A stretch of DNA of 32,812 nt, taken from assembly GCA_017514905.1 (NCBI GenBank), contig JAFWIK010000023.1, positions 1 through 32,812 on the forward strand. Direction: 5' to 3'. The notes beneath the pieces are model-generated. The model was not told the DNA's origin. It was given only the letters and a program-made list of their open reading frames with translations, and did not search any database. Made by a program: the position numbers and the translations under genes. Position 1 is the first letter of the stretch. Each line of letters starts with the position of its first letter. The DNA is from Candidatus Saccharimonadota bacterium (lineage in GTDB: Bacteria; Patescibacteriota; Saccharimonadia; Saccharimonadales; Saccharimonadaceae). Positions 5,905 through 22,254 of the stretch are shown here, piece after piece.

Positions 5905-5980
5905 GCCGATGTAGCTCAGTTGGTAGAGCAGCTCATTCGTAACGAGCAGGTCACAGGTTCGATCCCTGCCATCGGCTCCA
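5905..5980 (+). tRNA. tRNA-Thr (anticodon CGT)
   Basis: Acceptor stem GCCGATG (5905-5911) pairs with CATCGGC, followed by T73 and an encoded CCA ending at 5980. The D arm is GCTC...GAGC, the anticodon loop TTCGTAA carries CGT, which reads ACG, and the T-loop is TTCGATC. Two A-C mismatches are visible: the last pair of the anticodon stem and the outer pair of the T stem. The gene overlaps neither neighbour and is followed by T6. Confidence 0.95.
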
Positions 5981-6014
5981 TTTTTTAAGGTTCGATCAGA
6001 CGACGAAGTGAATA

Positions 6015-6040
6015 AATATCGTGAGCTTGCTCACGATATT
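6015..6040. repeat. Perfect 12-bp hairpin in the tRNA-Thr downstream module
   Basis: 6015-6026 and 6029-6040 are perfectly complementary around a TT centre. It lies between tRNA-Thr and the copy of its 3' end and is not followed by a T run that would make it a clear terminator. Confidence 0.8.
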
Positions 6041-6058
6041 TTGAACGAGGAGGATGAA

Positions 6059-6081
6059 AGACTTTTGCAAAGCAAAAGTCT
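6059..6081. repeat. Hairpin with TTTTGC-n3-GCAAAA core next to the tRNA-Thr echo
   Basis: 6059-6068 pairs with 6072-6081 around AAA. It abuts the copied tRNA 3' end starting at 6082. A hairpin with the same core sits in the same place behind tRNA-Val (9640-9664). Confidence 0.8.
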
Positions 6082-6105
6082 ATCCCTGCCATCGGCTCCA
6101 TTTTT
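6082..6105 (+). repeat. Copy of the tRNA-Thr 3' end (24-base direct repeat)
   Basis: Identical over 24 bases to 5962-5985, covering the last T-loop bases, the 3' T stem, the 3' acceptor strand, CCA and five following T. The spacing is 120 bases. The remaining 5' part of the tRNA is absent here, so this cannot be a second tRNA gene. It resembles the duplicated end left by insertion into a tRNA T-loop, but no integrase is nearby. Confidence 0.9.
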
Positions 6106-8797: not shown

Positions 8798-9388
8798 GTG
8801 ACACTTAGAATTACTGAACAAAAACTTAGAAACAAACGATTCTTAAAAAGCGAAGAAACAACTATTGTCACTCTTCTTTCAGTTAAAGAAATGATAAGTA
8901 TGAATCGCTTTATTCGGCTCGCAAAAATCTCTCGCTCTACCATTAATCGTCATCATGGCAACCTCCAATCAGTTGCCCCCGATTATGAAAAGTATCTCAT
9001 GAACCGTTGTCGATCCGTAACCAAACGTCTAAGGAATGATCCTAGCTCAGAGCTTAAAGCATTATTTTTTCGGGTTCTCATTTTTCTGTTTGTCAACCGT
9101 TTGTATGTTACATTAGTTCTAGAAAAAGGGAATCACGATGTTATCGAAAAATTGATTCTCATTCTCAAACCCAAAATTTTGGCTTCTAGCCAAGTTAGTG
9201 ACGGCGAAATGTTTGATGTCTATCTCAAGGAGATCTCTGGTCTGATCGAAGCTTGGTGTAGAGCTGGTTTTAATAAAAAATCTCTCTCTGCTACTGTCGC
9301 AAAAATTACATATCTCACTGACACTGCCAACATTCGCTTAAGCCCGCTAGCTTCTTTTAATAATGATCGGTCGCTCGATGAAGACTAA
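8798..9388 (+). CDS. TetR-like helix-turn-helix protein
   Basis: A 196-residue protein whose N-terminal half contains a helix-turn-helix around I-S-R-S-T-I-N-R-H-H, closely like the TetR recognition region, followed by an all-helical domain with a hydrophobic stretch near 90-105 as in TetR ligand/dimer domains. It starts at GTG 8798, 17 bases after the glycosyltransferase, with a G-rich site at 8787-8793. Position at the end of the envelope operon suggests it could control that operon, but no matching operator was found. Family assignment is by the HTH only and is moderate. Confidence 0.6.
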   Translation: MTLRITEQKLRNKRFLKSEETTIVTLLSVKEMISMNRFIRLAKISRSTINRHHGNLQSVAPDYEKYLMNRCRSVTKRLRNDPSSELKALFFRVLIFLFVNRLYVTLVLEKGNHDVIEKLILILKPKILASSQVSDGEMFDVYLKEISGLIEAWCRAGFNKKSLSATVAKITYLTDTANIRLSPLASFNNDRSLDED

Positions 9389-9405
9389 CATTTTTGTACA
9401 CTCTG

Positions 9406-9414
9406 TGGTATAAT
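9406..9414 (+). promoter_or_regulatory. Extended -10 promoter of tRNA-Val
   Basis: TGGTATAAT ends 9 bases before the mature tRNA 5' end, so the primary transcript has only a few extra bases. Confidence 0.7.
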
Positions 9415-9423
9415 TACTCTAAT

Positions 9424-9500
9424 GGGTTGTTAGCTCAGCTGGCTAGAGCGTCTCGTTTACACCGAGAAGGTCGGGGATTCGAGCTCCTCACAACCCACCA
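9424..9500 (+). tRNA. tRNA-Val (anticodon TAC)
   Basis: Acceptor GGGTTGT (9424-9430) pairs with ACAACCC, with discriminator A and encoded CCA ending at 9500. The D arm is GCTC...GAGC, the anticodon stem TCTCG/CGAGA, the loop TTTACAC with anticodon TAC, and the T arm GGGGA-TTCGAGC-TCCTC. All stems pair. The last A of CCA is already the first base of a 17-bp terminator-like hairpin. Confidence 0.95.
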
Positions 9501-9537
9501 TAGAAAATATCCAACCCTCAGGTTGGATATTTTCTAT
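9500..9537 (+). terminator. 17-bp hairpin directly after tRNA-Val
   Basis: 9500-9516 and 9521-9537 are perfectly complementary around CTCA, so the transcript would fold immediately after CCA. There is no long T run after it; it may end the tRNA transcript or guide 3' processing. A sequence-diverged but structurally equal hairpin (17 bp, 4-base loop) follows the copied tRNA end at 9682-9719. Confidence 0.7.
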
Positions 9538-9554
9538 AGATAAGTTAGAGGGGT

Positions 9555-9664
9555 GCGAATCCCATAGGGATTCGCTCGTGGTAGGAGCCGCATAAAAGTC
9601 TAACCTTTAGGTTAGACTTTTCAAGGCGACGCCCCACGAATTGTTTTTGCGTAGCAAAAACAAT
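9555..9664. repeat. Hairpin cluster between tRNA-Val and its 3'-end copy
   Basis: Three perfect hairpins follow each other: 9555-9563/9567-9575 (9 bp), 9594-9605/9610-9621 (12 bp, TTTA loop) and 9640-9650/9654-9664 (11 bp, core TTTTTGC-GTA-GCAAAAA). The last abuts the copied tRNA end at 9665. TCGTGG near 9574 and CCACGA near 9634 can also pair, enclosing the middle hairpin. No open reading frame is present. Confidence 0.75.
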
Positions 9665-9719
9665 GCTCCTCACAACCCACCATGAAAAATACCAAATCTT
9701 CTGATTTGGTATTTTTCAT
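9665..9719 (+). repeat. Copy of the tRNA-Val 3' end plus its own 17-bp hairpin
   Basis: 9665-9683 is identical to 9483-9501: last two T-loop bases, 3' T stem, 3' acceptor strand and CCA, at a spacing of 182 bases. It is followed at 9682-9698/9703-9719 by a perfect 17-bp hairpin with a 4-base loop. That hairpin resembles the one behind the real tRNA but differs at several stem positions with pairing kept on both sides. Confidence 0.88.
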
Positions 9720-9870
9720 ATGTAGTCGAGAAGCGAGAATCCCTTGGGATTCGGACCCATTATGTTTTCAGTTTTGACACAAATGTTGCAAAACTTTTCA
9801 ATCAAAAATCTTGCATCGTTTTCTTTGTGGTAGAATGGGCAAAGCGGAGGAGAAAGGATTATATTTTTAG
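9720..9870 (+). promoter_or_regulatory. Upstream region and extended -10 promoter of the racemase-like gene
   Basis: Holds a 7-bp hairpin (9737-9752) and an extended -10 box TGGTAGAAT at 9828-9836. GGAGGAG and AAAGGA follow at 9846-9857, which is further from ATG 9871 than usual. Nothing coding is seen before 9871. Confidence 0.5.
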
Positions 9871-21900: not shown

Positions 21901-22254
21901 TGGTGGAGCTGCCGGATACTGCCTCCGGGTCCGAGTCATCACTGGGCCATAATTCTACGTGCGTAGTTTTCTGTTTCATCTTGACTTATTCTAGCAGCAG
22001 CAGAGAACGAAACTGCTAAACGTCATGGCGTTTTTGTCGGGCTATTTTTTGCCAAATAAACAGCTCTATCCTCGTTGTATGATAATTCTGGCTCTACGAA
22101 GCCTTAAGTCAGAACCAGCTTAGATCAAACTAAGCATAAGCCGGCATGTACATAACATGCGCGGTTTTCGTGTTTTTAGCACTTATTAATACTTACGGTA
22201 TTTGATCGGCACGCCTTACGACTGTTAATGATCCGTCTAAGCTTTTTCAGCCCC
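21901..22254 (-). ncRNA. ssrA: Transfer-messenger RNA (tmRNA)
   Basis: Rescues stalled ribosomes and tags the unfinished protein. On the minus strand the 5' end GGGGCTG (22254-22248) pairs with CAGCTCC before ACCA (21911-21901), and GACGG follows as in other tmRNAs. AAGGCGTGCCGA mirrors E. coli AAGGUGCAUGCCGA, and its CGTGC pairs with GCACG near 21960 as helix P2; TCGGAC precedes the T arm. The likely tag frame is complement 22130-22180: resume GCT after AATAAGT, peptide AKNTKTAHVMYMPAYA, stop TAG within a GCTTAG...CTAAGC hairpin, as usual for tmRNA. Oddity: the T-loop reads GGCAGTA between CCGGA and TCCGG instead of the usual TTC-type loop. The rest of the RNA holds the pseudoknot region. 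Length 354. Confidence 0.88.

Follow-up and report, generated by a model that had tools for sequence, protein, structure and literature searches.

Structured palindromic units behind tRNA genes of Saccharibacteria: a probable family of non-autonomous mobile elements

Why is a tRNA gene followed, 182 nt on, by a second copy of its own 3' end? The question is raised by a tRNA-Val gene in the window analysed here, by which we mean the whole stretch of 32,812 nt from contig JAFWIK010000023.1 (GCA_017514905.1) of a Candidatus Saccharimonadota bacterium, family Saccharimonadaceae. We followed it through the 700-kb, 87% complete genome to which the window belongs (G000), taking in all 41 tRNAs found there, and through related genomes. 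This sequence comparison leads us to think it rather probable, with the mechanism proposed below included, that the second copy, here called the echo, marks the distal end of a non-autonomous mobile element of 182 nt whose insertion point lies directly behind the CCA of tRNA-Val, and that this element is one of a palindromic, structure-conserved family of Saccharibacteria.

As the initial annotation had claimed, positions 9483-9501 recur from the T-loop on at 9665-9683; the direct repeat is exact over 19 nt, has a spacing of 182 and lies inside a 56-nt pair with 79% identity (features are listed in Table 1). Both copies do run, as was also claimed, into a perfectly paired 17-bp hairpin with a 4-base loop, namely the head hairpin (9500-9516/9521-9537, loop CTCA) and a post-echo hairpin at 9682-9719 (9682-9698/9703-9719, loop TTCT). 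The 183-nt stretch 9501-9683 has a fold z of -13 as DNA and -12 as RNA, and directly 5' of the echo stands HP2, with a perfect 11-bp stem (9640-9650/9654-9664). In Rfam searches of 9380-9800 at gathering and permissive thresholds, only the tRNA reached a gathering score and no family for the unit was found. The head hairpin is probably the transcription terminator for tRNA-Val; a simple terminator scan did not call it as one. Elsewhere in the window, a tmRNA at 21901-22254 on the minus strand is matched by Rfam (86 bits), with no call by ARAGORN.

Table 1. Features at the tRNA-Val and tRNA-Thr loci of the window
Feature	Coordinates	Strand	Evidence
tRNA-Thr(CGT)	5905..5980	+	ARAGORN
120-nt unit: AGGTTCG copy, flipped core variant, HP2 GACTTTTGC-AAA-GCAAAAGTC, echo to 6100	5981..6100	+	Repeat analysis; empty site in relative L289
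tRNA-Val(TAC), intact, encoded CCA; insertion target	9424..9500	+	ARAGORN; Rfam RF00005, 63.1 bits
Inserted unit, complete, 182 nt: first base after CCA to CCA of echo	9501..9682	+	Repeat spacing; boundaries as at related loci; fold z -13
Head hairpin, 16-17 bp, 5' arm A-rich, 3' arm T-rich	9500..9537	+	Repeat analysis; fold
S1 5' strand, antisense to T-stem 3' side, paired with 9664-9670	9548..9554	+	Fold; arm matching in 74 units
H1 hairpin GCGAATCCC-ATA-GGGATTCGC: T-stem 5' strand, antisense and sense	9555..9575	+	Fold; loop survey of relatives
Conserved core (model R1): P1, GTAGGAG-NN-CGA ... hairpin ... CGACGCC, two tandem G-A motifs	9576..9639	+	78.0 bits, E 9.8e-18; covariation
HP2 hairpin ATTGTTTTTGC-GTA-GCAAAAACAAT	9639..9664	+	Repeat analysis; fold
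Echo: tRNA-Val T-loop to CCA (+T), copied	9665..9683	+	Direct repeat
Older second unit in tandem, remnant: head hairpin and S1/H1 remnant, core and echo lost	9682..9758	+	D1 and D2 repeats at spacing 182 and 180

From the two differing but perfectly paired hairpins the initial annotation had concluded that structure is under selection. The conclusion holds through covariation in relatives, but the two window hairpins do not represent alternative forms of a single site: each stands at the head of a different unit, the units following one another in tandem and the second being decayed, so that the proof by compensatory change comes from the relatives. The annotation had also pointed to a TTTTTGC/GCAAAAA hairpin before the echoes of both tRNA-Val and tRNA-Thr. 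Such a hairpin is indeed found at both, the Thr echo (5959-5985 against 6079-6105, 26 of 27 nt identical) being preceded by its own HP2; the letters themselves, however, are not conserved, and the hairpin is one instance of a freely varying element in which loop type and GC closure are the favoured features. The Thr unit holds a core variant, also seen in L048, in which the strands of the internal loop are swapped (GACGACG...GAGGAGG for GTAGGAG...CGACGCC).

Echoes are common among the tRNAs of this genome. An exact echo of the last 16 nt was found within 400 nt downstream of ten of the 41 G000 tRNAs, about a quarter (Tyr, Arg-TCG, Ser-TGA, Val-TAC, Thr-CGT, Asn, Gln-TTG, Arg-CCT, Arg-TCT and Leu-CAG), with two echoes apiece at tRNA-Tyr and tRNA-Arg-CCT. 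Controls on the same 41 tRNAs gave no match upstream, none with mid-tRNA segments and none in 200 rounds of shuffled flanks, while tRNA 5' ends gave one, which was a neighbouring tRNA-Pro. The echoes are thus real and far above chance, and the proposal that different tRNAs share one mechanism is supported, as many other tRNAs of the genome and genus carry the module.

In G000, long units lie at the Val, Arg-TCG, Asn and Leu-CAG tRNAs, and a shortened form at Thr. The order in a long unit is CCA, head hairpin, S1, GA, H1, core, HP2 and then A(T-loop), T-stem 3' side, acceptor and CCA. Here S1 is antisense to the T-stem 3' side and part of the acceptor, and H1 consists of the T-stem 5' strand in antisense, a GNA-type loop and the same strand in sense with a terminal TTCG; from the H1 sense strand to the echo, the layout therefore amounts to a second T-arm with the core in its loop. 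An approximately 100-nt head hairpin (GGCGCCATCTCGGCGTTTTTT..AATCTGGCGCC) stands ahead of different units, at tRNA-Asn of G000 (L026) and at L059, L053 and L077. Short units of 60-80 nt lack the core; in three of them (L066, L094, L033) the loop TTCTTCGAAT lies within the inverted T-arm and is common to different tRNAs and genomes, and these probably constitute a second element family.

The core has the consensus P1-GTAGGAG-NN-(C)GAG-Y-hairpin-CGAG-NN-CGACGCCC-P1' and contains two tandem G-A steps that lie 3 bp apart. In GTAG the leading G is paired with C (85 of 86 sequences have GC at this pair), and the TA falls in an internal loop inside P1. Its pairing is kept in relatives through massive covariation, as the initial annotation had hoped to see. 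Two alignments were used, A1 being an ungapped MAFFT alignment and A2 one fitted to the model and hence biased towards the structure: both sides had changed in 18 of 23 pairs among 13 seed sequences (0 of 500 shuffles) and in 21 of 23 among 91 distinct sequences (again 0 of 500 shuffles). In the larger set 96.8% of cells were paired, against 73.6% when shuffled and less than 48% in slid versions. Among 58 units of relatives, 44 have a C(GNA)G loop in H1. As this is a particularly stable type of DNA mini-hairpin, the loops hint at single-stranded DNA; the mismatches in the core, however, show little strand bias, G-T and A-C being balanced (14 versus 17) once the pairs at columns 18/58 and 20/56 are set aside.

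Comparison of genomes suggests that the units are mobile. At one orthologous tRNA-Val site, two relatives (L042, L057) are empty, a third (L065) has an 82-nt unit and a fourth (L217) a 189-nt unit, and all four flanks align from the first base past the CCA or the echo; units therefore insert precisely after CCA. The Thr unit of the window is likewise absent at L289, where the downstream gene and flank are orthologous. Units also pass between genomes: L052 and L062 hold a 188-nt Val unit that is 98.4% identical within unrelated flanks, and in each the echo is that of its own host's allele. In the tRNAs themselves the acceptor stem is still paired. Most echo alleles match the host, and the direct repeat is 18-19 nt at insertions with an intact echo, yet three echoes (L171, L202, L208) show an allele seen in other hosts. 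A strict target-site duplication is weakened by these foreign alleles and is not proven against a carried identity segment; the echo may either travel with the unit or be copied.

The arms of a unit are matched to its target. Over 74 units, 572 of 666 S1 positions pair with the echo of the same unit, compared with 390 (maximum 414) when echoes are dealt among the units; where echo and tRNA differ, S1 agreement is split about evenly between them. Near-identical cores are found at different tRNA species, and in each case S1, H1 and echo have changed to suit the tRNA, as in a Val unit (L052) and a Glu unit (L200) that are almost exactly alike in core and HP2 and differ in S1, H1 and echo.

Seven more core copies in G000 lie away from tRNAs, and four of these are in stop-free open frames, in alaS, obg, tsaE/tsaB and a DAG-kinase gene. 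Large palindromes, in frame and differing from one another, also occupy the linker of obg, between the GTPase domain and the C-terminal domain, in about half of the sampled genus genomes (L226-L251); their folds are of about -65 to -110 kcal/mol, and several of them fall outside the R1 core family. At L088 (about 1500-1620), a core copy is seen shortly before what looks like the beginning of a 23S rRNA gene, with a 13-nt direct repeat, AGGAATCGAACTT, similar to a reversed T-loop, on either side of it.

The core was found in 30 of 40 genus genomes, with up to 13 copies (12 modules in G000, 8 in G013, 13 in G038, 4 in G028) and no core match in the other 10. In a phylum-wide sample it was present in 9 of 287 genomes, most strongly within the same family. 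Across about 85,000 named species genomes, the exact core pattern matched 79 stretches, of which 76 are labelled Saccharibacteria, many from rumen or gut; one further match (L309, an unlabelled MAG) is a typical tRNA-Gly unit, and two in Actinomycetota (L274, L275) look like coding sequence and were set aside as chance. The core is thus essentially confined to Saccharibacteria. No Rickettsia appeared in the named-genome scan, and viral contigs gave no match to the pattern, so that no viral vector was seen. Among 90 sampled modules, 79 stand behind a tRNA (16 amino-acid types), with a typical unit of 175-190 nt, but the sample favours high-scoring, exact-motif copies, so 79 of 90 is not a genome-wide rate, and of the 12 core copies in G000 itself, 5 stand at tRNAs. 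In a different genus within the family (G323), three of eight sampled tRNAs have a head hairpin, S1-GA-H1 and an echo at 179-196 nt; at the Lys, Tyr and Val tRNAs there (L353, L359, L363, L371, L377) the core is unrelated to R1. The frame of the unit is thus alike where the core is different, and so would be older or wider than the core.

No dedicated mobilising enzyme is visible among the families tested (Y1, tyrosine recombinase and reverse transcriptase), and no relative carrying a transposase gene of these families was seen. Y1/RAYT (Y1_Tnp, PF01797) has a match in one of the 40 genus genomes and none in G000, and RVT_1 has none in G000 (12 modules, 87% complete), G010 or G036, all of which have modules. 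At least one tyrosine recombinase is present in all but two of the 40. It is single, and presumably housekeeping, in G000 (on another contig), G013 and G038, and none was detected in G028 (97% complete, 4 modules). Y1/RAYT, reverse transcriptase and an extra tyrosine integrase were each considered as mobiliser and rejected, since none tracks with the modules.

On the reading we favour, a copy of the element, most likely in the form of one folded DNA strand with GNA loops and tandem G-A pairs, would be joined to a tRNA gene at its T-arm/CCA end. Joining would duplicate the T-loop-to-CCA segment, about 18-19 nt, so that the tRNA stays whole, and the terminator, now displaced, would be replaced by the element's own head hairpin. 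The copies of the T-arm around the core, antisense and sense, would be either made from the target or selected to match it, and in protein genes the core would be tolerated because it is inserted in frame. More tentatively, the units could be mobile DNA of a new class, moving as one folded strand whose arms are tailored to each target: the T-arm would be copied both ways along with the T-loop-to-CCA segment, and the core, with no enzyme of its own, could settle at the end of any tRNA gene or, in frame, inside a protein gene.

Other explanations must be set against a mobile element of this kind. The units may be scars of a tyrosine recombinase, either dedicated or the housekeeping Xer, that puts small satellite circles at tRNA 3' ends, with the echo and the tRNA 3' end as attR/attL identity segments and the antisense arm as part of the core binding site. 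Their layout is that of the classical tDNA island, in which the target is restored and the displaced fragment lies at the far end (PMC4383910), and both the foreign alleles of some echoes and the near-ubiquity of tyrosine recombinases would fit. We nevertheless consider it unlikely, as the module-rich genomes G000, G013 and G038 have a single such enzyme and G028 has none detected, and as the arms and echo follow the tRNA species, so that one recombinase would have to accept nearly all tRNAs; the in-frame copies inside protein genes and the common body of L052 and L062, each with the echo of its own host, speak against it too. We give somewhat less credence to a functional RNA, in which a tRNA read-through transcript would adopt the shape of a tRNA-like minihelix ending in CCA and affect tRNA processing or serve as a decoy or regulator. 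Strong covariation, the tandem G-A pairs and an alternative T-arm fold with the downstream antisense are what such an RNA would offer, but presence at orthologous tRNAs is patchy, a quarter of the genus genomes (10 of 40) have no core match, echoes decay freely, copies lie inside protein genes, and the excess of G-T over A-C is not seen in most of the core.

Local fold-back (snap-back) replication of the T-arm, with no mobile element and a core acquired secondarily, strikes us as highly improbable. It would account for short units that hold little beyond an inverted T-arm and 3' end, and for an obg linker crowded with other palindromes; it does not account for one conserved core motif common to tRNA species, protein genes and genomes, nor for a whole unit common to two genomes with unrelated flanks.

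The family put forward here works like Rickettsia palindromic elements and tDNA-targeting elements, without the enzyme features that define REP/RAYT systems and integrase islands. The elements of Rickettsia (RPE), described by Ogata et al. (2000, 2002) and reviewed in PMC10969869, are likewise palindromes of about 100-200 bp that lie stop-free and in frame in unrelated essential genes and occur in reduced genomes of host-dependent bacteria, with no transposase known; the likeness is one of described behaviour. In contrast to RPE, the units target mainly the tRNA 3' end with a T-loop-to-CCA echo, have target-matched arms, keep structure while sequence is largely free, and belong to an unrelated lineage. 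REP palindromes of the GTAG and CGTC types, with their RAYT, are also short, structured and tolerated between or inside genes, and the core too starts with GTAG (PMC3733652). However, 39 of 40 genus genomes, including that of the window, have no Y1/RAYT, the unit is larger, multi-branched and tRNA-directed, and its GTAG lies in an internal loop rather than unpaired at the foot of a simple hairpin. Integrative elements with a tyrosine integrase that target tRNAs (Islander) likewise restore the tRNA 3' end and leave a displaced copy at the far end (PMC4383910), but they measure kilobases, whereas the 182-nt unit has no integrase gene, occurs in tandem and at many tRNA species and carries an antisense arm matched to its target. 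MITEs resemble the units in being short and non-autonomous, with inverted repeats and a direct repeat of the target, which in the units the echo may be (PMC10969869). They differ in that the inverted arms of the unit copy the target and not the element, that its direct repeat, 18-19 nt long, always corresponds to one and the same stretch of a tRNA, and that no parent transposon was found among the enzyme families tested. A search of the openly accessible literature gave no description of such elements in Saccharibacteria.

If this reading is correct, tRNA 3'-end echoes and palindromic linkers in these genomes should be annotated as insertions, and not as second tRNA genes or native protein domains. 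The units would be a case of mobile DNA that is free in sequence but bound in structure, with very clear covariation, and would offer a natural system for studying spread without a visible transposase and how arms come to match their targets. They would also form an independent parallel to the Rickettsia palindromic elements. Structured selfish DNA would then be colonising the genomes of host-dependent Saccharibacteria, of only 0.7 Mb, at the genes they can least do without, with those genes left working.
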